DNA of 36,775 nt. Source: Lentisphaeria bacterium. GTDB lineage: Bacteria; Verrucomicrobiota; Lentisphaeria; Victivallales; Victivallaceae. The translations under genes and the position numbers were made by a program. Each line of letters opens with the position of its first letter. The stretch's first letter is position 1. A model generated the notes under the pieces. The model ran no database searches. It saw only the letters and a list, made by a program, of their open reading frames with translations, and was not told where the DNA came from. Of this stretch, positions 5,044-36,775 are shown in pieces. The stretch lies in NCBI GenBank assembly GCA_017450705.1, contig JAFSTC010000022.1, forward strand, positions 1 through 36,775. The letters run 5' to 3'.

Positions 5044-7016
5044 TTCGTCGGCTCTCCTTTTCTTTGAAAAGTTCCTTCGGACATGCGCAAGTCCAGAAGG
5101 AAGGGAATGGCGACCGAGGCGGGATCGAGTTCCTTCCCCGCATTCCGGGCCTGTTCCGTTTTGATGAAAATATAAAGCTGCGAGGCGGAGTTTTCGCCCT
5201 CGCGGATGTCGGGGACATCCAGCCCGCCGTCCCGGGTCAGGATCACTTCGGCCTCGTCCGGGCGGCCGGTGTGAGCCAGCGCGGCGGCCTTCATCATCTG
5301 AACGAGGGGCAGGGCGGCGTCTCGGGGGGAGAGACGGTCCAGCAGGGTGAACATTTTGCCGTACTCCCCGAAAGAGAGCAGCATTTTCAGGGCCTCCTTG
5401 ACGAAGGGCGTGTCGGCGGGATCGAGGAGCGCGGCCCGCAGGATCATGTCGGCGGATTCCTGCCGCCGCCCCTGCCGGTCGAGGAGATTGGCCCACGCGT
5501 GGAGCAGATGACGCCTGTTTGCGGGATCGCCCGCGGCGGCGAGTTCCCGTTCGGTCCGTTCCCGGTCCTCGCGGCGGAAATAGTTCAGTGCCAGATGGTA
5601 GTGGACCTGGGGACCGGGGACGGCCTTTTTCAGCAGCTCGAACCACGCGTCGGAGACCTGATAGGAGGCGGGGAGCGCTTCGGTCATGCGGCCCGTCCGC
5701 AGAAGTTCCACCCAGGGGGTCTGCTCGGGGCCCGGCGCGCCGAAGTCCAGCTGGGGCGCGAGTTTTCCGCCCCGGCGCAGTTCCTCCAGCGCGCCCCATC
5801 CGGAGCCCTTCACGACGACTTTGCCCGGCTTGAGAGCGATGCTCTCCCGTGTTTCGCGGAGCATGTTTTCAAGGGCCGCCGCGGGGATTTTGCCGTCCAG
5901 CGCGGCGGTGACGGCCCCGACGGCGTCCTCCCACTTGCCGTGGACCTGTTCCGGCTTCATGACGAGGGAGCCGTAACCCTCCAGCCACTCCCAGGCGGTT
6001 TTGGGGGGCATGGGCAGACACTCCTGCTGGGAGCGGCCGAGGCCGCCCTGAAGTTCGATGTAGGAGTCCAGTCCGGGGCCCAGCAGCTTTCTGTTCCAGT
6101 GGCGTCCGCCCTGACACTGCCCCCAGACGAAGAGCTTGCGTCCCCGCAGGCGTTTGGTGGAAACGTGGCAGAAGCCGTATCCGTCCTCATAAAAGAGGCA
6201 TTCGTAGCGCCGCACGTCTTCGGGGATGTCGTAGAAGTGATCCTTCACGTATTCGAAATTGACGGGATAGGTCCCGTCGAAGCCCTCGCCGTCGGGCAGG
6301 GAAAGTTTCGCCAGCGCGTGGGAGCCGCCGCTGTACCAGTTGGCGAAGACCTCCTTCGCCGGAACGACGACGCGGCTGCCGGGGACTTCCGGCAGGGCCA
6401 TGTTGCTCCACCAGTACATGGGCTGAACGGTGTCGTCCGGGTTGAAAATGCGGCCCCGGATGTAGAGAAAACGGGAGTCCTCCGGCAGGAAGCAGTCGTA
6501 CTGGAAAGGGGTGCCCCGGTCCCGCTGGTACTCGTAGAACCGCAGGACGGGGAAGTCCGGCGTCTCGACCACGGCGCAGAAGCGGGGCGACATGGTCTGT
6601 TCGTCGTGGCCGCGGCGGCCGCAGTTGAATTCGACGCCGCCTGCGAACCAGGCGTTGCGGATCCCCAGATTGCAGGGGAGGAGCCGGGTGTTTTCCAGCA
6701 GCAGATCCCTGCCGTTTTCCTTGTCGCGGAGCGACCAGAGCCGGCCGCCCAGCTCGGGCAGGAAGACGGCTTTCAGGTACTTGTTTTCCAGCACGGCGGC
6801 TTTGAAGTCGAGTTCCTCCTCGGGGGTGTCGTAACTGTCCTGAAGCGTGTAGGGCAGGCCGTCCCGGAACATGCCGTAGCCGATGAAAAGACCGTCGTCC
6901 TCGTCCAGTTCGGCCGAGATCTCGGATTTGATGAGTTCCCGCAGGGCGGGAAACCACGACGACGGGCCGACCCTGCGGCCCCTCAGATGAAGCGTTTCGA
7001 ATCTCAAGTTGTTCAT
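5040..7016 (-). CDS. DUF5107 domain protein with C-terminal TPR-like repeats
   Basis: The 658-residue protein begins with a beta-rich segment (about 50-340) typical of DUF5107, a galactose-mutarotase-like fold. Examples are LKAVFLPELGGRLWSLRDK and the Trp/Asn-rich stretch MYWWSNMALPE. From about residue 455 to 620 the sequence becomes alpha-helical with TPR-like pairs (YHLALNYFRREDRERTEREL, LLHAWANLLDRQGRRQESAD). No signal peptide is visible. Proteins of this architecture occur widely in Lentisphaerae and Verrucomicrobia next to glycan-degrading enzymes, and an active role on sugars or oligosaccharides is suspected but not shown. The start at 7016 has AAGG eight bases upstream. The stop overlaps the ATG of the serine hydrolase gene, and gpsA ends 44 bp upstream, so the three genes probably share a transcript. 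Confidence 0.8.
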   Translation of the reverse strand: MNNLRFETLHLRGRRVGPSSWFPALRELIKSEISAELDEDDGLFIGYGMFRDGLPYTLQDSYDTPEEELDFKAAVLENKYLKAVFLPELGGRLWSLRDKENGRDLLLENTRLLPCNLGIRNAWFAGGVEFNCGRRGHDEQTMSPRFCAVVETPDFPVLRFYEYQRDRGTPFQYDCFLPEDSRFLYIRGRIFNPDDTVQPMYWWSNMALPEVPGSRVVVPAKEVFANWYSGGSHALAKLSLPDGEGFDGTYPVNFEYVKDHFYDIPEDVRRYECLFYEDGYGFCHVSTKRLRGRKLFVWGQCQGGRHWNRKLLGPGLDSYIELQGGLGRSQQECLPMPPKTAWEWLEGYGSLVMKPEQVHGKWEDAVGAVTAALDGKIPAAALENMLRETRESIALKPGKVVVKGSGWGALEELRRGGKLAPQLDFGAPGPEQTPWVELLRTGRMTEALPASYQVSDAWFELLKKAVPGPQVHYHLALNYFRREDRERTERELAAAGDPANRRHLLHAWANLLDRQGRRQESADMILRAALLDPADTPFVKEALKMLLSFGEYGKMFTLLDRLSPRDAALPLVQMMKAAALAHTGRPDEAEVILTRDGGLDVPDIREGENSASQLYIFIKTEQARNAGKELDPASVAIPFLLDLRMSEGTFQRKGEPTK

Positions 7017-7060: not shown

Positions 7061-8056
7061 TCAGTCCTCTTCGGGCCGGGCGGACCGGGTCATCAGGGAG
7101 AACATGGCCTCCTTCACCGGTTTCCCCTGATAAAGAATGGCGTAAATTTCGTCGATGATCGGCGTTTCCGCTCCGGCCCGCCGGGCCAGGGCGTACGCGC
7201 CCTTCGCCGTGGGAACGCCCTCGGCGACGACCATGCCCATTTCAGCGAGAATCTCCTTCAGGGCGCGGCCTTTCCCCAGCTCCTCGCCCACGTGCCGGTT
7301 GCGGCTGTGCCCGCTGCAGCAGGTGACGATCATGTCTCCGATGCCGCTCAGCCCGCTGAAGGTGGCGCGCCGGCCGCCCAGGGCTTCGCCCAGACGGCCC
7401 ATTTCGGCGATAGCCCTCGTCATCATGGCGGCCTTGGGGTTGTCCCCCAGCCTCATGCCGTCGATGATGCCCGCGGCGATGGCGAAGACGTTTTTGAGCG
7501 CGCCGCCCAGCTCCAGCCCCGCCACGTCGGCGGAGGTGTAGACCCGGAAGCGCTCGTTCATCAGCGCCCGCTGGACGAATCTTGCCGCCGCGGCATCCGC
7601 GGAGGCTGCGGTGACCGCCGTCGGGACCTTGCGCGAAACCTCCTCGGCGTGGCTGGGGCCCGAGAGGTCCGCGTAGGTGACTTTTCCCAGCTCTTCCGAA
7701 ACGATCTCGCCGATCCGCAGCCAGGTATTGAGTTCGATGCCCTTGGCCACGTTGACGATCACCGCGTCGGCGGGGAGGCGGCCCTTCATTTTTTGCAGGA
7801 CGCCCCGGAGAAACTGGGTGGGCGTCGCGCAGACGACGAGGGCGCTTCCGGTGAGGGCTTTTGTCATGTCCGGCTCGAAGACCAGATTTTCCGGCAGCCG
7901 GACGCCGGGCAGGAATTTGGAATTCTCCCCCGTCCGGCGCATCTCTTCCAGATAGTCCGGAAAAGCGCCCCAGAGGACCGTGTCGTGCCCGTTGGAAAGG
8001 GCGTTCATCGCCAGAGCCGTGCCCCACGCGCCGTCGCCTGCCACGCAGATCTTCAT
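7061..8056 (-). CDS. gpsA: Glycerol-3-phosphate dehydrogenase [NAD(P)+]
   Basis: This 331-residue cytoplasmic enzyme reduces dihydroxyacetone phosphate to sn-glycerol 3-phosphate, the backbone for phospholipid synthesis. The N-terminal dinucleotide-binding loop is GDGAWGTALA (residues 7-16). NVAKGIE contains the conserved substrate Lys, and LSGPSHAEEV and GGALKNVFAIAAGI are diagnostic family blocks, the latter with the catalytic Lys. The length is normal for the family. The start at 8056 follows an excellent AGGAGGG ribosome site at eight bases; upstream in-frame codons lie in the promoter and terminator region. It leads a probable operon with the DUF5107 protein and the serine hydrolase. GC-rich inverted repeats in its short leader (about 8071-8097) sit just before the ribosome site. 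Confidence 0.96.
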   Translation of the reverse strand: MKICVAGDGAWGTALAMNALSNGHDTVLWGAFPDYLEEMRRTGENSKFLPGVRLPENLVFEPDMTKALTGSALVVCATPTQFLRGVLQKMKGRLPADAVIVNVAKGIELNTWLRIGEIVSEELGKVTYADLSGPSHAEEVSRKVPTAVTAASADAAAARFVQRALMNERFRVYTSADVAGLELGGALKNVFAIAAGIIDGMRLGDNPKAAMMTRAIAEMGRLGEALGGRRATFSGLSGIGDMIVTCCSGHSRNRHVGEELGKGRALKEILAEMGMVVAEGVPTAKGAYALARRAGAETPIIDEIYAILYQGKPVKEAMFSLMTRSARPEED

Positions 8057-8102
8057 TTTTTTTCCCTCCTGCTGCCGGCGTGATGCCGCCGGCGTCAGGG
8101 AA

Positions 8103-8130
8103 AATATATCACGGCCGGCTTTTTTTTCAA
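8103..8130 (-). promoter_or_regulatory. Promoter of gpsA operon
   Basis: On the minus strand TTGAAA (8130-8125) and TATATT (8108-8103) are 16 bases apart. The same hexamer pair recurs at several other promoters in this window. Transcription would begin near 8096, giving a leader of about 40 bases. Confidence 0.65.
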
Positions 8131-8137
8131 CCGGAAA

Positions 8138-8175
8138 GAAAAAAAATCCCCCGCGTCCCGAAGGATACGGGGGAT
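8138..8175 (-). terminator. Rho-independent terminator of the small heat-shock operon
   Basis: On the minus strand a 13-bp stem (ATCCCCCG... pairing with ...CGGGGGAT, one internal mismatch pair) with a TTCG tetraloop occupies 8175-8146. It runs straight into eight or more T residues. It lies 20 bp after the stop codon of the second hsp20 gene and just ahead of the gpsA promoter. Confidence 0.93.
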
Positions 8176-8194
8176 CCGGCAAAAGGAGATGCCT

Positions 8195-8530
8195 TTACTC
8201 GACTTTGATCTTGTGGACGGTCGCCCGCTCGGACTTGGGCAGACACAGCGTCAGCACGCCGTCCTGGGTTTTGGCCTGGATGCCCGAGACATCCACCATG
8301 TCGGAGAGCTGGAAAGCCCTGTAGTAGCAGATCGGACCGCCGTTGCGGGTGAGGGAGCTGACGGCCCGCATGGTGAGCACGCCGTCCTCGACGGAGACGT
8401 CGATGCTTCCGGAGTTGGCTCCCGGGACTTCGAACATGATCTTGACGCCGCAGTCCTCTTCGATCACATCCACAGCCGGACGCACTTCGACGGCGTTCTC
8501 CGGCACGCTGAAACACTTTTTGTCTTCCAT
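8195..8530 (-). CDS. Small heat-shock protein (Hsp20/alpha-crystallin family), second of tandem pair
   Basis: The 111-residue product consists almost entirely of an alpha-crystallin domain: VIEEDCGVKIMFEVPGANSG, then the DGVLTMRA strand and the late DGVLTLCLPKSE strand. The N-terminal arm is very short and the C-terminal IxI motif is absent or degenerate (LCL). The family prevents aggregation of unfolded proteins without ATP. The start is placed at ATG 8530 because TAAGGAG lies about nine bases upstream; Met codons at 8557 and 8554 precede that ribosome site. It follows the first hsp20 gene by 51 bp and shares the same AAGGAGTAC leader motif, so the two are probably cotranscribed and recently related in their leaders. 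The short arm suggests it may need its partner to assemble. Confidence 0.88.
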   Translation of the reverse strand: MEDKKCFSVPENAVEVRPAVDVIEEDCGVKIMFEVPGANSGSIDVSVEDGVLTMRAVSSLTRNGGPICYYRAFQLSDMVDVSGIQAKTQDGVLTLCLPKSERATVHKIKVE

Positions 8531-8581
8531 TCTGCAGTACTCCTTATTTTTCATCATTGCACCGTTTTCGCTTCGGGATCC

Positions 8582-27266: not shown

Positions 27267-27312
27267 GTTCCCGGAAGGCCCCGTTTCACGAAAGGAAAGG
27301 TCTTTGCAGAAA

Positions 27313-28077
27313 ATGAAGCGTTCTCCCAAGCCGGTCCGCCGTTTCACCTTGATCGAACTCCTGGTCGTGATCGCCATCATCGCCATTCTGGCCGCCATGC
27401 TCATGCCCGCCCTGCAGCAGGCGCGGGAGCGCGGCAAGAGCGCCAGTTGTCAGAGCAATCTCAAAACCTTCGGACTGGGCCTTGCCTTCTACGCCGACTC
27501 CAACGACGGTTTCTGCTGGCCCCAGCAGACCGTGACCCGCAGCGGCGGCCGCTCGTCGTGGAACACCGCGGGCAACTGGTTCCACAGGACCATGAGTCCC
27601 GGCACCACCGACGAGAACTGGAAGGCGGGGAAGGCGGTCAACGGCTGTCCCTCCCGCACCGAGACCGGCCGCCCCCTGGCCTCCGTCCGCGTCTCGGGCT
27701 TTTCCGACGCGGCCTACAGTTACGGGCAGTCCCAGAAACTGGTGGGCCACTGGCACGGAACGGCCCCCAAGCCGCGGAAGCTGGTGCGCCTGAGATACCC
27801 CTCTTTTTACATCGCTTTCATGGACAGCGAAGCCTACCAGAACAACAACAGCTACTGCTGGCAGCGCTTCACGGCCGACGGGACGAAGTACACCGATTTC
27901 CGCCACAGCGGCGGCACCTCCCTCAACGCGGCCATGAGCGACGGCCGGGTCATGTCGTTCAGCAATCCCGACGAGTGGTTCGCCGACACGCAGCAGATCG
28001 CAGCCAAGCGCGACACCTACAAGCGCTTGAGACCGGCCTACAACAAGGAACCGGCGTGGATCGACGACTATAATTAA
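27313..28077 (+). CDS. Pseudopilin, second of three tandem paralogues
   Basis: The 254-residue protein has leader [10 protein letters not shown] followed by [20 protein letters not shown], the shared [16 protein letters not shown] block, [12 protein letters not shown], and [17 protein letters not shown] with H-X11-DG spacing. Arg again replaces Gly before the Phe. The middle region is the most divergent of the trio, with a Pro/Lys-rich insertion ([12 protein letters not shown]), so its surface may differ. ATG 27313 is chosen because it matches the leader length of its neighbours; the in-frame TTG at 27304 is less likely. AAAGG lies 12 bases upstream. The gap from the first paralogue is 46 bp with no terminator. 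Confidence 0.9.
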
Positions 28078-28079
28078 GT

Positions 28080-28108
28080 TTTTCCGCCGCTCCGGGCGGG
28101 ACGGAAAA
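28080..28108 (+). other. Hairpin after second pseudopilin gene
   Basis: TTTTCCG and CCGC pair with GCGG and CGGAAAA around a TCCGG loop with a two-base bulge. It starts 3 bp after the stop codon and has no T-tract downstream, so it may protect or process the mRNA rather than end it. Confidence 0.5.
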
Positions 28109-28124
28109 GGAAGAGTGATGTCCG

Positions 28125-28144
28125 GGGGACCGGTTCCGGTCTCC
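28125..28144 (+). other. Hairpin upstream of third pseudopilin start
   Basis: GGGGACCG pairs with CGGTCTCC (one G-T pair) around a GTTC loop, ending 25 bases before ATG 28169 and just ahead of the AAAGG ribosome site. Confidence 0.45.
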
Positions 28145-28168
28145 GCAAAAGAAAGGTTCGAACATAAA

Positions 28169-28936
28169 ATGAAAAGTTGCCCGAGAACGGGATGCCGTTT
28201 CACGCTGATCGAGCTCCTGGTGGTGATCGCCATCATCGCCATTCTGGCCGCCATGCTCATGCCGGCGCTGCAGCAGGCCCGTGAGCGGGCCAGGAGCGCC
28301 AGCTGTCAGAACAATCTCAAAACCTTCGGCATGGGCCTCGGGTTCTACGCCGACGGCAACGATGGGTACGCCATTCCCCAGCAGACGGTGAACCTTGCCC
28401 AGGGCCGCGGTTACGCCAGTTGGTACAGCCCCAGCGCCTGGCTGAAGCGGACCATGGCCGCCGGTTCCAGCGATGACGCATGGAATGCCGGCAACTGTTT
28501 CAACGGCTGTCCCTCGCGGGCGGACAACGGCCGCTCCTACCCGGTCGTCACCAACATGAGATACATCAGTTACTCCCACGCCTCCGGGGTCCTCGGGCAC
28601 GTCCACAATGCTGACCCCGCGAGCTGGCGGGGCGTGAAACTCTCCTGGCTCAAAAAGCCCTCTTTCTACATCGCCTTCAGCGATTCCGAAAGTTACATGA
28701 ACAACAACTCCTACTTCTGGAAGCGGTATCCCGAGGGCGGCATCACCTGCGAATACTCCGATTTCCGCCACAGCGGCCGGACATCGCTCAACGCCGCCAT
28801 GACCGACGGGCACGTCCAGGTGTTCAACAACATGTCGGACTGGTTCTTCACCAGCGAGGGCGAAGCCGCCAAGCACGACACCTACAAACGTTTCCGGCCC
28901 CGCTACAACGGCGAGATCAACTGGTCCAAGATGTGA
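28169..28936 (+). CDS. Pseudopilin, third of three tandem paralogues
   Basis: The 255-residue protein has leader [10 protein letters not shown], the same [20 protein letters not shown] segment, [28 protein letters not shown] and [17 protein letters not shown] (H-X11-DG). It resembles the first paralogue more closely than the second (for example YAIPQQT, LGHVH and [10 protein letters not shown] against [10 protein letters not shown]). Arg precedes the cleavage-site Phe. A Cys in the leader (CRF) is unusual among the four. The start at 28169 follows AAAGG by 12 bases, as in its neighbour; an upstream in-frame ATG at 28115 would add a leader far too long for a prepilin. Its stop is followed at once by another hairpin. 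Confidence 0.9.
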
Positions 28937-30776: not shown

Positions 30777-30826
30777 AAAATACCGATATCGGGCTATTTC
30801 ATTTATCGTTTCGCGGGCTATAGTAT
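30741..30826 (+). promoter_or_regulatory. Conserved upstream element, copy B (esterase/lyase genes)
   Basis: TTCCGGAA (30741-30748), GTTAAAAAATA (30772-30782), TTTCATTT (30797-30804), TCG (30806-30808) and GGCTATAGTAT (30816-30826). From GTTAAAAAATA onward the offsets (25, 34 and 44 bases) equal those of copy A exactly. TATAGT (30819-30824) is the candidate -10, with ATTTCA 17 bases upstream. Predicted leader length to ATG 30915 is about 85 bases, with a CGGCG-GTTT-CGCCG hairpin at 30857-30870. Confidence 0.7.
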
Positions 30827-30914
30827 GTCAGGAAACAGGCTCCGTCCGCGTTTCTTCGGCGGTTTCGCCGGAAGGGCGCGGGGAAGGAGCCGCATAACGG
30901 GAAGGGTTGTCTCT

Positions 30915-32264
30915 ATGAAATTGAGTTTTCTGGCGGCGGTCTTCGCCGCGGTCGGCTGCGCGGCCGGCGAGCTGAGCGTGGATGCGAAAACGGATAAAAA
31001 GGATTCCATTTACAAGTGCGGCGAAACCGTGACCGTCACCGCCGCGGCGCTGGAGGACGGCAAGCCCGTCTCCGGCAAGACCGTCACCTACACCCTCGAC
31101 GCCGACGGCGGTTTCTCCAAGCGGGGCAAGTTCGTGAGCGACGCGGAAAAACCCTGGACCTTCGAATACAAATTTTCCCGTCCCGGCGCTCTGCGGGCGG
31201 AGTTCACCATTCTGGGAGACGACGGCAAGCGGATCCCTCTGAAACGGGGCTACGATCAGGTGCGTTTCGCGGGCGGCCGCATCGGCGCCGCCGCCGAACC
31301 GGACAAGATCCTGCCCGGCGGCAAGACCCCGGAGGATTTCGGCGCTTTCTGGAAGGCCCAGCTGGACCGCCTTGCCCAGGTGAAGCCGGAGGTGCTGGAG
31401 CGCAAAAAGCTGGATAAACTCCCCGGAGCTTACAACAGCGTAGACATGTGGGACGTCAAGGTTGCCAGCGTGGACGGCGTCCCCGTCTCCGGCTACCTCG
31501 CCATGCCCAAAAAGGCCGCGCCCAAATCGCTGCCCGCCATCCTGCTGGTCCAGGGCGCCGGTGTCGGCAGCGCCGCCCCTTCGAACATCTTCCGCTGGGC
31601 GAAAGAGGGGGCCATCTGTCTGGACATCAACGCCCACGGCGTCCTCAACGGCCAGCCCCGGAAATACTATGACGACCTGAAAAAAGGCAAATTCAAAAAC
31701 TACTACAGCAAGGTCTATCCGGATAGAGAGAAGCACATCTTCCTCAACATGGGTCTCCGGGTGGTCCGGGCGCTGGAGTATCTGCGGAGCCTTCCCGAGT
31801 GGAACGGCCGCGACCTCATCATCCGCGGCGCCAGTCAGGGCGGCTGGCAGGCCGTCGTCGGCGCGGCGCTGGATCCCAAAGTGACGATGTGTGTGGCGGG
31901 GGTCCCCGCCTTCAACGACTTCGACGGCGAGTTCTCGCCCGAAATGCGCCGGATGCAGCGCATGCACTTCGGCGGCGCGATCCGGGCCATGAAGGCCGGA
32001 AAAGAGAAGACCGCCGAACTGCTCAAGGCCCAGTCCTACTTCGACGGCGCGAATTTCGCCCCCATGATCAAGTGCCCGGTGTACGTCACCGTTGGGTATC
32101 TGGATCTCTCCAGCCCCACCACCTCGGTCTACGCCCTGTACAACCGGATCTCCGCGACGACCGAGAAGCACATTACGGCCTATCCGGGGAGCGCTCACGC
32201 CAAGTGCCCCTCGACCGAGGGTGACGCCGCGGCCATGAAAGTCATCAAGGACGCGAAAAAATGA
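30915..32264 (+). CDS. Secreted AXE1-family acetyl esterase, first of tandem pair
   Basis: The 449-residue protein has a short signal peptide (about 1-17), with Cys15 in an imperfect lipobox (AVGC). An Ig-like beta domain (about 19-125) precedes an alpha/beta-hydrolase domain of the acetylxylan esterase (AXE1/CE7-like) family. The nucleophile is Ser307 in GASQGG, with Asp397 in GYLDLSSPTTS and His428 in GSAHAK completing the triad. The family removes acetyl groups from xylan oligomers or antibiotics such as cephalosporin C; the extracytoplasmic location suggests polysaccharide deacetylation. The start is ATG 30915, with AAGGG eight bases upstream. The stop overlaps the start of its paralogue as ATGA, and the pair probably arose by duplication. 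Confidence 0.9.
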   Translation: MKLSFLAAVFAAVGCAAGELSVDAKTDKKDSIYKCGETVTVTAAALEDGKPVSGKTVTYTLDADGGFSKRGKFVSDAEKPWTFEYKFSRPGALRAEFTILGDDGKRIPLKRGYDQVRFAGGRIGAAAEPDKILPGGKTPEDFGAFWKAQLDRLAQVKPEVLERKKLDKLPGAYNSVDMWDVKVASVDGVPVSGYLAMPKKAAPKSLPAILLVQGAGVGSAAPSNIFRWAKEGAICLDINAHGVLNGQPRKYYDDLKKGKFKNYYSKVYPDREKHIFLNMGLRVVRALEYLRSLPEWNGRDLIIRGASQGGWQAVVGAALDPKVTMCVAGVPAFNDFDGEFSPEMRRMQRMHFGGAIRAMKAGKEKTAELLKAQSYFDGANFAPMIKCPVYVTVGYLDLSSPTTSVYALYNRISATTEKHITAYPGSAHAKCPSTEGDAAAMKVIKDAKK

Positions 32265-33619
32265 GGTCGTTCCCCGCCGTTCTTCTGCTGGCCGCATCTC
32301 TGTGCGGCGCCGCCGAGCTGTCGGTCGACGTCAGGACCGACCGGCCCGACGCCGTTTACAGAAGCGGCGAGGAGATCGCCGTCACGGCGCGCGCGCTGGA
32401 GGACGGCAGGCCCGTTTCCGGCCTTCGGGTCGATTACGAGCTCATCGCCGACGGCGGGTTTTCCAAAAAGGGGAAATTCACCAGCGATGCAGAGAAGCCC
32501 TTTGTCTGGAAGCACACGTTCAAGTATCCCGGGGCTCTGCGGGCGGAGTTCACCGTCTACGACCGGAACGGCAAAAAGGTGCGGCTGAAAAACGGGTACG
32601 ATCAGGTGCGTTTTGCCGGCGGGCGCATCGGCGCCGTGGCGGATCCGGAGAAGATCCGCCCTTCCGTCGCCGCGCCGGAGGATTTCGCCGACTTCTGGAA
32701 GAAGGAGCTGGCCGAACTTGAGAAGGAGCCCTGCCGGGAGCTGGAGCGCAGGGAGGTGGAAAATCTTTCCGCTTCCGCGAAAAAGGCGGTGCGCCTCTTC
32801 GACATCCGGGCGACGGGGGCCTGCGGACAGCCCGTTTCGGGGTATCTTGCCATGCCCCGGGAGGCGAAGGCCCGCTCCCTGCCTGCGGTCCTGCTTCTTC
32901 AGGGGGGCGGGGTCCATTCCGCCCGGATCCATACCGTCGTCCCCTGGGCGCGGCGGGGGGCCATCTGTCTTGAGATCAACGCCCACGGTCTCCCCAACGG
33001 GGAGAAGCCCGAATTCTACAGCGCCTTGCGGGCGGGACGCCTGAAGCATTATGCCGAGAAGCAGCTGTGGTACTCCCGCGAGGAACATTATTTCAGGGGC
33101 ATCGCCCTGCGGGTCGTCCGGGCGCTGGAATATCTGAGGAGTCTTCCCGAGTGGAACGGGCGCGATCTCGTCGTCCGCGGTGCCAGTCAGGGCGGCTGGC
33201 AGGCCGTCGTCGGCGCGGCGCTGGATCACAGGGTGACGCTGTGCATCGCGGGGGTCCCCGCCTACGGCGACTTCGACGCGGAGTTCTCTCCCGAACTGCG
33301 CCGCATGCCCCGCATCCACTGGGGCGGCCGGATCCGCGCGCTCAAGTGCGACATGGCGAAAAAAAGGGAACTGCTCAAGGTGCAGTCCTATTTCGACCCG
33401 GTGCATTTTTCTCCTCTCGTGGGGTGCGAGACCTTCATCACCGTGGGGTACGTGGATCTCTCCTGTCCCACGACCTCCGTTTACAGCATTTACAACAGTC
33501 TTCCCCCGACGGTGAAAAAGCACATCGACGCCTTCCCCGGCGGGGTCCACGCCAAGTGTCCGACCACGGCCGGGGACGCGGCGCTCGCCGCAGTCATCGA
33601 AAAAGCGAAAAAAAGGTGA
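32261..33619 (+). CDS. Secreted AXE1-family acetyl esterase, second of tandem pair
   Basis: The 452-residue protein has signal peptide MRSFPAVLLLAASLCGAA. It shows the same two-domain order as its upstream neighbour and matches it along the whole length (GYDQVRFAGGRIGA and EYLRSLPEWNGRD in both). The triad is Ser309 in GASQGG, Asp399 in GYVDLSCPTTS and His430 in GGVHAK. The loop between domains (about 150-180) and the segment after NAHG are the most divergent parts, which suggests a changed substrate. DNA around the nucleophile is identical to the first copy over 46 bases (31830-31875 and 33182-33227). Its start is coupled to the upstream stop by ATGA. Confidence 0.9.
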   Translation: MRSFPAVLLLAASLCGAAELSVDVRTDRPDAVYRSGEEIAVTARALEDGRPVSGLRVDYELIADGGFSKKGKFTSDAEKPFVWKHTFKYPGALRAEFTVYDRNGKKVRLKNGYDQVRFAGGRIGAVADPEKIRPSVAAPEDFADFWKKELAELEKEPCRELERREVENLSASAKKAVRLFDIRATGACGQPVSGYLAMPREAKARSLPAVLLLQGGGVHSARIHTVVPWARRGAICLEINAHGLPNGEKPEFYSALRAGRLKHYAEKQLWYSREEHYFRGIALRVVRALEYLRSLPEWNGRDLVVRGASQGGWQAVVGAALDHRVTLCIAGVPAYGDFDAEFSPELRRMPRIHWGGRIRALKCDMAKKRELLKVQSYFDPVHFSPLVGCETFITVGYVDLSCPTTSVYSIYNSLPPTVKKHIDAFPGGVHAKCPTTAGDAALAAVIEKAKKR

Positions 33620-33698: not shown

Positions 33699-34307
33699 AT
33701 GAAAAAAAGCATGTTGATCCTGATGGCGGCCGCCTTCACGGCGGTCGTGTCCGGAGCGGGGATCGCGATCGAGATCGACGGTCGTCCCGCGAAGATCAAG
33801 TTTTCGGAGGTGAAGGGGCTGAAGTTCCGCTATCCGACGACCGGGGAGAACAAGGAGTTTTACCTCGAATTCTACGATCCCGCGGAACTGCCGCTCAACT
33901 GGACCGAGTACAGCATAAGTTTCGTCCCCGCCAAGACCGGTTACGTCGTCCTCGGCCTCACCGCCACGTACCCCACGAAGAAGGGTATGGACGACTGGGT
34001 GGAGTACGACAAGTTCGAGGTCGAAAACGGCAAACTCAGAAATCCCTCCTTCGAGCTCATGAGCACCAAGGGCGACCTCTTCGCCTGGCGCTACTACACC
34101 AAGCGCTCGGAGAAACTCGACAGGAAAGACGCGCCCGACGGCAAGAACTACGTTGCCTCCTTCCGGGGAAAATCCATCCGTCAGGGGCTGTACGTCACTG
34201 CCGGCAAGCCCGTCACCGTCAAATTCCTCGCCCGCTCCGGAGGCATGACGCCTCAGATCAAGGAGGAGCCCTATTATTCTGATCAGAGTGCACCGCAGGC
34301 CAAGTGA
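33699..34307 (+). CDS. Secreted stand-alone CBM-like module
   Basis: The 202-residue protein has a signal peptide (1-19, ending VVSGA) and one beta-sandwich module. Landmarks are WTEYSISFVPAKTGYVVLGL, LRNPSFELMS, the Trp in FAWRYYTK, DAPDGKNYV and SIRQGLYVTAGKPVTVKFLA. This is the pattern of galactose-binding-like or CBM4/9-like carbohydrate-binding modules. It is closely related to the first module of the next gene over its full length (AGLSFR, WRYYTK, DAPDGKNYV, SDTSAP), so it arose by duplication. No catalytic domain is present; it may act as a free binding or adaptor protein. The AAGG one base before the ATG is too close, so the AAAGG eleven bases upstream is the likelier ribosome site. 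The next gene starts 2 bp after its stop. Confidence 0.8.
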   Translation: MKKSMLILMAAAFTAVVSGAGIAIEIDGRPAKIKFSEVKGLKFRYPTTGENKEFYLEFYDPAELPLNWTEYSISFVPAKTGYVVLGLTATYPTKKGMDDWVEYDKFEVENGKLRNPSFELMSTKGDLFAWRYYTKRSEKLDRKDAPDGKNYVASFRGKSIRQGLYVTAGKPVTVKFLARSGGMTPQIKEEPYYSDQSAPQAK

Positions 34308-34309
34308 AA

Positions 34310-36775
34310 ATGATGAGATCCGTCAAAAACATACTGCTGCTGACCGCGGTCGTCTGCGCGTCGGCGCTTTTCGGCGCGGGCGTCGCCGTCGAGATCGACG
34401 TCCGCAATCAGAAGATCCAGCTGAGCGAACCCGCGGGGCTGTCCTTCCGCCATCAGGCGAACAACGATCCCGCCCGGGTGTACTACTGGGAGTTCTACTC
34501 CAAGGAGGAGGCTTCCCCCGACTGGAAGCCCTATGAGATCTCCTTCGTCCCCGAGAAGGACGGTTACGCCGTCCTCGGCCTCACCGCCACCGAGAGCCGC
34601 CAGCGCGGCAAGTGCGAGTGGATCGATTACGACAAGCTGGAGCTGGTCAACTCCGCCGTCGCCAACCCCTCCTTCGAGCAGATGAGTGTGAAGAAGGACT
34701 TTTACCGCTGGCGCTATTACACCAAGGCCGCCGAGATGCTCGGTAAGAGCGACGCGCCCGACGGCAAAAACTACGTCCGGGTCTGCCGTGCTCTCTGCAT
34801 CCGGCAGGGGATCCGTCTGACCGCGGGGAAAAAGGTCACCATCAAATTTCTGGCCCGCAACGGCGGCGTCTCCGATCCGCCCAAGGACAAGTCCTACTCC
34901 GACACCAGTGCGCCGCTGCTCGAGAGCGGGAAAAAGCCGGTCAAGTCCGCACCGGCGGGCGTTCCCGGACTGCGTCTGGCCCTGCGTGGCGAGCCCTTCT
35001 TCAACGTCGAGCTCAAGGAGCTCTCTTCCAGCGACAACCTGACCTTCGACAACGTCATGGTCAAGGGCAAAACGAGTTATTTCCACGCCTGCGCCTACAA
35101 CAGGGAGCCCCTGGACGGCAAATGGCGCAAGTACACGGTGACCTTCACGCCCTCCATCACGGGCGAGATCAACATGTTCGCCGAAGCCCATCCCACTCTC
35201 CGCGGCGACAAGGTGCAGTGGGTCTTTTTCGACAAGTTCGAGGCCAAAGGAACGAAGATCCTCAACCCCTCCTTCGAGACCGTTCTGGCCGGCATGCCGG
35301 CCCGGTGGGAGAGCTATCCCCAGAACGTCCGCCTGAACGTCTCCGACGCTCCTGACGGCAAGAACGTGGCGGCCGTGGGCGGCGGGAGCAATATCCGGCA
35401 GGTCATCTCCGTGGTGCAGGGCCGTCCCGTGACCATCAGCTTCTACGCGCGTCTGGGCGACGTCGCGAAGAAAACGCTCCGGAACAAGGGCAACGACCCC
35501 GTTCCCAACAAGTTCCCCAAAGACTACTACCGCTTCGACAACGGCATCGTGCGCTATCTGCCGCTCAAGAACAAGGGCGTCCCGGGCAGCACCATCCACC
35601 GGGCGCAGTATTCGTGGATCGAGTTGACGCCTCCGCCGCCGCTCACCATCAAGTACCCCGTCGATCAGAAGAAGGGCAAACTCAAAAAGACCGCGATCCC
35701 CTTCGAGCTTCTGGAGGAGAGCAACATCGCCCGGACGGTTTTCGTCAAGTTCGGATTCCCGTTCCCCGAGGGCGGCATTTACGGGATCGACAAGCTGCGG
35801 ATCGTCTCCCCCGATGGGAAAGCCGTTCCGGCGCAGTTCACCGCCACCAGCTTCTGGCCCGACAAGTCCGTCAAGTTCGTTCTGGCCGAATTTCCCGCCA
35901 AACTTGCGGCGAAGGAAAAGTCCGTGTGGAAACTCGAGATCAACTCCGACCGCAAAGTGCCCGCTCTGCCTGAGCTCAAATGCGCGCTCACGGACACGGG
36001 TTTCGCCGTCGATACGGGGAAACTCGCCGCAACGGTGAGCAAGAGCCGCTTCTCTTTCCTCAACGATGTGAAAGTCGACGGCAAAAAGGCCGGGTCTTTC
36101 AGTCCCAAGGGGCTGGAGTTCGTCGACGAGGCGGGCAAGCTCTTCACGTCGTCTCAGGAACCCCTCGAAAAACTCTACATCGAGTCCAGCGGGCCTCTGG
36201 CGCTGACGCTGCGGGCCGACGGCAAGCTGGGCGGGAGCCGTTTCACGGCGCGCATGACCTTCCGCGCCGGATCCTCCGTCGTGGACATCTCCATCCGTTT
36301 CCAGAATGTCGATCTCAAGACGGAGTTCAACGACTTCCGCAGTCTCTCTCTCGACTACGTGCCCGCGGTCCCCGCGAAGAGCATCAAAATGGAGGGCGCA
36401 ACGTGCCAGCGGATCCATCAGCAGGATGACGAGACGCTCAAAATAGACGACCGCCTGTTCAACCGCAAGATGGGCGATGGCGGCGCAGCCGGGAACCTCA
36501 CCTACGCGCTGCGGGACGCGGCGTACCGCTACCCCAAGGCTTTCAGCGTCGACAAGGGCGCGGTGAAGTTCGAACTTCTGCCGCCCCTGCCGGGACCGGA
36601 ATTCGGCAAGGACATGCCCTATTATCTGCAGTTCCCCTTCTGCGGGGGCTTCTACCGCATGAAGTGGGGCATGGGCTTCACCGAAGACCTCAAAATCGAC
36701 TTCAGCGGCAAGACCTCTCCGGCGGAACTGGCCGCCAAGAGCGTGATCCCCGTCATCGACAGGGACTGGGTGTAC
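34310..36775 (+). CDS. Large secreted protein: two CBM-like modules plus PcRGLX/YetA-like (PL26-like) domain, 3' part outside window
   Basis: The frame opens at ATG 34310 (or the next codon, 34313) and stays open for 822 codons to the window edge. Residues 1-24 form a signal peptide. Module 1 (about 25-205) has VANPSFEQMS, WRYYTK and DAPDGKNYV. Module 2 (about 218-390) has LNPSFETV, DAPDGKNV, NIRQVISV and VTISFYARLG. From about residue 470 comes FVKFGFPFPEGGIYGIDKL, then RIVSPDGKAVPAQF and SFWPDKSVKFVLAEFP, matching the N-terminal RIFT-barrel domain of the PcRGLX/YetA-like exo-rhamnogalacturonan lyases. The catalytic alpha/alpha barrel would follow outside the window. A role in degrading rhamnogalacturonan or a similar acidic glycan is inferred. 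It sits in a row with two acetyl esterases. Confidence 0.78.
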   Translation, partial: MMRSVKNILLLTAVVCASALFGAGVAVEIDVRNQKIQLSEPAGLSFRHQANNDPARVYYWEFYSKEEASPDWKPYEISFVPEKDGYAVLGLTATESRQRGKCEWIDYDKLELVNSAVANPSFEQMSVKKDFYRWRYYTKAAEMLGKSDAPDGKNYVRVCRALCIRQGIRLTAGKKVTIKFLARNGGVSDPPKDKSYSDTSAPLLESGKKPVKSAPAGVPGLRLALRGEPFFNVELKELSSSDNLTFDNVMVKGKTSYFHACAYNREPLDGKWRKYTVTFTPSITGEINMFAEAHPTLRGDKVQWVFFDKFEAKGTKILNPSFETVLAGMPARWESYPQNVRLNVSDAPDGKNVAAVGGGSNIRQVISVVQGRPVTISFYARLGDVAKKTLRNKGNDPVPNKFPKDYYRFDNGIVRYLPLKNKGVPGSTIHRAQYSWIELTPPPPLTIKYPVDQKKGKLKKTAIPFELLEESNIARTVFVKFGFPFPEGGIYGIDKLRIVSPDGKAVPAQFTATSFWPDKSVKFVLAEFPAKLAAKEKSVWKLEINSDRKVPALPELKCALTDTGFAVDTGKLAATVSKSRFSFLNDVKVDGKKAGSFSPKGLEFVDEAGKLFTSSQEPLEKLYIESSGPLALTLRADGKLGGSRFTARMTFRAGSSVVDISIRFQNVDLKTEFNDFRSLSLDYVPAVPAKSIKMEGATCQRIHQQDDETLKIDDRLFNRKMGDGGAAGNLTYALRDAAYRYPKAFSVDKGAVKFELLPPLPGPEFGKDMPYYLQFPFCGGFYRMKWGMGFTEDLKIDFSGKTSPAELAAKSVIPVIDRDWVY

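Follow-up and report, generated by a model that had tools for sequence, protein, structure and literature searches.

The window analysed here, a stretch of 36,775 nucleotides (nt), is the entire contig C103 (JAFSTC010000022.1) of a gut bacterium, Lentisphaeria bacterium (assembly GCA_017450705.1). Near its right end, a gene for a free-standing protein of 202 amino acids (aa) with a single module resembling a carbohydrate-binding module (CBM) precedes the gene for a large pectin-lyase-like enzyme, PcRGLX-like by its domains, which bears two more such modules. By sequence comparison, each module appears to be a circularly permuted CBM_4_9 jelly-roll (PF02018; CAZy families 4, 9, 16 and 22), in which the C-terminal half comes first and the half beginning with NPSFE comes second. 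The free protein is probably an exported, single-domain, CBM-like permuted jelly-roll that shares a transcript with the enzyme, and it would bind an acetylated pectic polysaccharide identical or related to the one bound by the enzyme. This reading builds on four in silico observations: the homology of the modules, the swapped order of their halves, the intactness of the free gene under selection, and the recurrence of free copies in relatives.

In a whole-genome search the free protein matched module 1 of the enzyme (34325-34918, E 3e-60, 51% identity) more closely than module 2 (35057-35467, E 5e-22, 37% identity), in both cases far beyond chance, as an earlier note on this DNA had claimed. 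Among the landmarks named in that note, NPSFE, DAPDGKN and IRQ were found in all three modules, but the AGKxVTxKFLAR strand is present only in the free module and module 1, module 2 having QGRPVTISFYAR instead; the end of module 2, put at 35480, lies at ~35452 according to the family profile. The note had counted three copies, one of them free. There is indeed one free copy, but the total was too low: besides itself and modules 1 and 2, the free protein had eight further matches at E ≤ 1 in its own genome (97.4% complete), and a profile of 42 modules gave 10 matches at E ≤ 0.01, one free and nine within frames of 551-1353 aa. The proposed search for other free copies found none elsewhere in this genome, but many in relatives.

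Profile-profile comparison provides the clearest line of sequence evidence for the permutation. A family profile of ~156 positions represented 64 of the 67 modules collected, any shorter than 135 residues or containing X being removed, while the canonical profile was made from 18 of 21 CBM_4_9 matches, three partial ones being left out and one of the 18 coming from the genome studied here. In native order, hhalign aligned family columns 87-156 to canonical columns 1-73 (score 57.6) and, as a second swapped piece, columns 40-59 to 105-124 (score 30.2). After rotation at column 85 a single alignment of 116 columns was obtained (3-130 to 2-124, score 84.1), showing homology of both halves to CBM_4_9, each separately and re-ordered together. 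Rotations tried between 60 and 90 all scored above 80, and the other positions tried did not. The order of the CBM_4_9 profile, with the NPSFE half first, was not found in the native modules. In the free module, the first half (33768..34034, + strand; W..Y..SF.P ... W.EYDKFEV) corresponds to the C-terminal part of CBM_4_9 through the alignment of columns 40-59, its own match being weak (0.5 bits at canonical 107-120), and the second half (34035..34235, +; NPSFE ... W ... DAPDGKN ... IRQ ... VTVKFLAR) corresponds to the N-terminal part through that of columns 87-156, with an own match of 5.9 bits at canonical 3-45.

A cut scan, independent of the Pfam alignments, scored every second cut position of each module against the canonical profile. 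The best-scoring cut fell in columns 61-93 for 56 of the 64 modules, with a median gain of 4.4 bits, and it lay in the matching stretch of the length for 84% of these real modules versus 16% of 192 shuffled controls. By the same scan, with every canonical domain scored against a profile built without it, 17 of the 18 preferred no cut. In native order, 44/64 modules matched the canonical profile as two swapped pieces; three others had two swapped pieces that missed the position thresholds, and 17 had one piece or none. A canonical CBM_4_9 match (contig C51) and permuted modules coexist in this genome.

Pfam searches showed the same arrangement in pieces. In the large enzyme, CBM_4_9 was detected by its first half only (profile 4-76 of 136), from NPSFE onward, at residues 317-385 within module 2. 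The curated cut-off of this model (25.9 bits) was passed by two of the 10 native modules with coordinates, namely module 2 (29.4 bits alone and 35.5 in the whole protein, over half the profile) and that of locus L021 (27.5 bits), and was failed by the free module. Eight of the 10 matched CBM_4_9, the best stretch never exceeding a half-piece, and the C-terminal part of the profile matched near the module start in L021, L044 and the large protein of L019. When the halves were exchanged by a cut before xxNPSFE, as was done for 20 of the 42 modules, 18 matched at E ≤ 1. Seven of the same 10 modules then gave one CBM_4_9 stretch of 116-137 residues, the module of L018 remained a half-piece, and the free module and that of L032 had no CBM_4_9 match. 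No Pfam model for CBM36 or CBM60 was among the matches at E ≤ 1. In sequence searches of the PDB, the E value of the CBM4 chain 1gui fell from 1.3 with the native profile to 0.017 with the rotated one; short klotho and basigin stretches ranked above it in both searches and were treated as chance.

AlphaFold modelled the free module in native order, from 8 aligned sequences, as a beta-sandwich with a predicted local distance difference test score (pLDDT) of 83.8 and a predicted template modelling score of 0.81. The structure prediction proposed in the earlier note gave a confident beta-sandwich, but Foldseek found no PDB match for it at E ≤ 0.001. The label "CBM-like" holds in that both halves align with CBM_4_9, and needs qualifying by their swapped order, the lack of a Pfam match for the free module and this Foldseek result. 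The top VIA match of the native model was 1ajk, an engineered circularly permuted beta-glucanase (Z 7.5, root-mean-square deviation 3.7, 125 aligned), followed by glucosylglycerol phosphorylase entries (5.2, 4.9) and then mostly by concanavalin-type legume lectins (Z ≤ 4.9), together with a second engineered permuted glucanase, 1ajo (4.7). Concanavalin A is itself a natural permutant. Neither CBM4 nor CBM22 was among the 50 VIA matches listed for this model or among the Foldseek matches listed. The VIA matches of the native model fit a permutation, though such Z values may be due to chance.

If the modules were not permuted, the true domains could straddle them, one being made up of module 1's NPSFE half and module 2's first half; the free protein would then be a truncated fragment of two mismatched half-domains. 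The tandem does contain this one pair in canonical order, and the junction, which starts at NPSFE of module 1 and runs through the first half of module 2, was modelled from three sequences with a pLDDT of 53.1. Its top VIA matches were CBM22 (4xup, Z 7.6; 1h6x, 7.4), CBM4 (1gui, 7.2) and CBM16 (7.1), with CBM36 structures among the middling ones. In Foldseek the first row was a phage tail fibre (probability 0.33), and the next rows included a porphyran-binding CBM (1.00), CBM22 (0.97) and CBM4 (0.90), with query TM-scores of 0.29-0.36. The modelled junction thus resembles CBM22 and CBM4, in a poor model that is no proof by itself. A straddling arrangement is nevertheless very unlikely, and was rejected because of the single-module proteins in relatives, which show only the order C-half, N-half (33 of 75 profile matches lie in short frames). 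The free gene is moreover under purifying selection, and a linker between modules 1 and 2 (34859..34969, +), whose length varies among three relatives in the alignment, parts the two. The native order also folds confidently alone and the straddling stretch poorly, a contrast confounded by alignment depth; since the depths differ (8 versus 3 sequences), the two models are not fairly comparable on confidence.

Comparison with a relative indicates that the free gene is intact and conserved under purifying selection. Its orthologue, with 76% identity, was found at positions 7932-8540 of locus L045, from Lentisphaeria bacterium RGIG3718 of goat rumen, where the order AXE1 esterase, free module, enzyme is kept, with one AXE1 gene directly upstream. 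Nonsynonymous (dN) and synonymous (dS) divergence of the free gene were 0.162 and 0.79, a dN/dS of ~0.2 like that of the enzyme (N-terminus, dN 0.21 and dS 0.70; catalytic part, dN 0.128 and dS 0.64). The free copy could instead have arisen by recent partial duplication of the 5' end of the enzyme gene and have little function of its own, as its position beside the enzyme, its closeness to module 1 and its tail, which keeps the start of the linker, might suggest. However, in a tree of 64 modules the free copies of the two species form a clade (support 100/99) beside the module-1 clade (100/95), joined by a branch with support 97/70. The split therefore predates the divergence of the two species and the free copy is no recent truncation, which, with a dN/dS like the enzyme's, makes the duplication scenario quite improbable. 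A recent truncation or a pseudogene as the origin of the free gene was rejected on the strength of the tree and dN/dS.

Searches of other genomes showed that single-module proteins are, judging by frame lengths, a common unit in relatives. Matches to the free protein at E ≤ 0.001 were obtained in 33 of 100 genomes, its own included. The profile search matched 21 of 39 genomes of the same family (its own included, at least 90% complete), giving 75 matches; the frames that hold them are no longer than 285 aa for 33, 286-500 aa for 6 and longer for 36, though frames at contig ends may be cut. In a sample of the phylum, 14 of 115 genomes matched, 12 from the same order (its own included), one from elsewhere in the class and one from outside it. 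The module tree required 11 changes between the free and the fused state, at least 5 of them forced by well-supported branches, with labels taken from frame length and L016 and L043 set as free by hand; passage between the two states has thus been repeated. In one genome (G069, contig C1, 343345-345175) three single-module free genes were found in tandem.

PcRGLX domains above the cut-off were found in five of nine picked large frames bearing the module (L014, L015, L024, L036 and L018), while L027 had a weak beta-helix match below the cut-off and three had no match; the large frames of L045, L046 and L084 are also PcRGLX-like. As a non-catalytic domain, the module is thus joined to carbohydrate-active enzymes in the PcRGLX-like fusions, and many copies are joined to no enzyme. 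Twenty loci with free copies were fetched, and 10 neighbour proteins from 8 of them were scanned. Same-strand neighbours included a PcRGLX-like protein (L084), GH2 (L096), an alpha-amylase (L100), an acetylesterase (L098), a DUF6259 protein (L103), a LamG protein (L099) and an outer membrane efflux protein (L102), and a GH95 neighbour lies on the opposite strand in L095. DUF1559-like genes also occur close to the free modules, a few genes away at most, in L096, L098, L100, L103 and L045.

At the locus itself, the free-standing gene (33699..34307, +) starts with an ATG preceded by a purine-rich stretch, and its stop lies 2 nt ahead of the enzyme ATG. It encodes a signal-peptide-like N-terminus (33699..33755, +), called from the sequence itself and with a putative cleavage site near SGA, before G, followed by the single permuted module and a short C-terminal tail (34236..34304, +) with YYSDQSAP. 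The tail resembles the start of the enzyme's linker in the alignment; a short motif, (F/Y)SD(Q/T)xAP, is common to the tail and to the linker from 34859, and the end of the tail is predicted to be disordered, with pLDDT below 50 for the last ten residues. Two AXE1 acetyl-esterase-like genes lie upstream (30825..33619, +; 30825-32264 and 32261-33619), as adjacent paralogues with a 4-nt overlap, and two consecutive prepilin-like DUF1559 proteins are encoded ahead of the locus at 27304-28936. No tandem repeats were found at the DNA level.

The 5' part of the enzyme gene (34310..36775, +), starting at ATG 34310 or GTG 34304, encodes 822 aa with a signal-peptide-like start. Since the window is the complete contig, the open frame is cut at the contig end; the relative in L045 has 1449 aa and that in L046 at least 1433 aa. 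Module 1 (34388..34858, +; first half to 34657, second half from 34658) is 53% identical to the free module in the alignment, and module 2 (34970..35452, +) has its first half to 35257 and its second half from 35258. They are followed by a match to the PcRGLX_1st RIFT-barrel (PF19501; 35726..35878, +; E 1.3e-6, 28.5 bits versus a cut-off of 22.1), and the enzymes of L045 and L046 have the 1st and 3rd PcRGLX domains both above cut-off. By its domain models the enzyme is therefore PcRGLX-like, that is, rhamnogalacturonan-lyase-like. Contig ends cut three large genes of this enzyme family in the same genome, each with two permuted modules: at the end of the window (C103), at the end of C73 and at the start of C105. 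Contigs C39 and C87 open within a gene of this kind; aligned to the L045 enzyme, the last residue of the window corresponds to 829, and the first residues of C39 and C87 to 827 and 783. These look like assembly breaks in near-repeats. Ten PcRGLX_3rd (PF21346) matches at E ≤ 0.001 were found in this genome, several of them in frames of ~1070-1550 aa on contigs C18, C5 and C24, which had no permuted module in the profile search.

From this arrangement we infer that the free protein and the enzyme would be made from one transcript, exported and brought to one acetylated pectic polysaccharide or to two related ones, where the free copy could add binding sites or keep the substrate close to the enzyme and to the esterases encoded nearby. 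The PcRGLX-like enzyme, together with the AXE1 esterases, suggests a pectic ligand, which makes the more likely context of the two substrates named in the earlier note; for mucin, no pointer was seen among the results. The avidity or adaptor role that the note had proposed is possible for this operon. In a scarcely credible variant, half-domains would be exchanged: the second half of module 1 and the first half of module 2 would pair canonically within the tandem C1-N1-C2-N2, and the free C-N protein would dock on the open C1 and N2 as an assembly partner. If so, the free protein, with the linker start as its tail, would build a multi-module binding surface on the enzyme.

Several results weigh against an exported, permuted CBM acting with the enzyme. 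The free module had no Pfam match at E ≤ 1, native or rotated, and CBM_4_9 matched only 24 of the 42 native modules at this threshold, with a best E of 1e-6. Pfam gains from rotation were small for several modules and absent for that of L018 (E 0.0063 native, 0.008 rotated), four of the 20 rotated modules matched DUF642, and that of L032 matched only DUF642 and a peptidase model at chance level. The reciprocal cut scan, in which rotated canonical domains were scored with the family hidden Markov model, yielded a gain below 2 bits and does not decide either way. VIA Z-scores of 7.5 and 7.6 are of middling size and could be due to chance, and the junction, besides being poorly modelled, had no Foldseek match at E ≤ 0.001. 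Binding, like the reading as a whole, is deduced from sequence and models. Finally, several free copies in relatives lie beside genes that, judged by eye, seem unrelated to carbohydrates; some neighbours in the 12 loci outside the scan look housekeeping-like (e.g. L088 and L089), so that pairing of the free module with an enzyme is not universal, and the avidity or adaptor idea is not general. In L088 and L089 (about 5400-6090) the free module was seen in the same conserved neighbourhood of two related genomes, with no obvious carbohydrate enzyme by eye.

The free copies away from recognisable enzymes could also indicate a permuted beta-sandwich that serves as a structural or protein-protein domain of the cell surface or a secretion system and binds no sugar. 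The conserved Trp and Phe may be structural, and many jelly-rolls bind no sugar. This alternative is unlikely in view of the modules on PcRGLX-like enzymes, in more than half of the picked large frames and in L045, L046 and L084, of the free copies that adjoin glycosidase or esterase genes, and of the profile homology to a CBM family.

The permuted CBM-like reading can be set beside several known systems. The domains of PcRGLX-like proteins (PF19501, PF21345 and PF21346; rhamnogalacturonan exolyase, CAZy PL26) are shared by the adjacent enzyme and by most fused partners scanned, which differ from those proteins in bearing permuted modules at the N-terminus. With CBM_4_9, both halves of the module align by profile, the re-ordered alignment spanning canonical columns 2-124; the differences are the swapped halves, the longer unit of the family profile, which often makes up a whole small protein, and a free module that scores on no Pfam model. 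In NCBIfam, the 42 modules gave only three weak matches, two to GTA_spike_fiber and one to tail_200_repeat. Seen by Pfam in pieces or not at all, and so weakly by NCBIfam, these Lentisphaeria proteins are easily missed in annotation, and would form an overlooked set of probably exported, probably glycan-binding proteins.

Montanier et al. in 2010 reportedly linked two calcium-dependent CBM families, presumably CBM36 and CBM60, by circular permutation. That pair is likewise a natural permutation between CBM families, and differs from the module described here in the families involved. In the titles and abstract openings of part of the literature, no description of a permuted CBM_4_9 or of this module family was found. 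PMC3511584 describes an engineered permutant of RoCBM21, CP90, which folds and in which permutation went with dimerisation and tighter binding; there the permutation is engineered and in another CBM family, whereas here it is natural. PMC10223318 concerns an E. coli amylase with a permuted domain order rather than a permuted CBM. The comparison also took in parts of PMC2894822, PMC4625611, PMC7410926, PMC4444583 and PMC8206207. Natural permutation between CBM families is thus already in print, and the module described here is a further case in another family: a natural, testable example of circular permutation within a large CBM family, of which one genome holds both canonical and permuted members.

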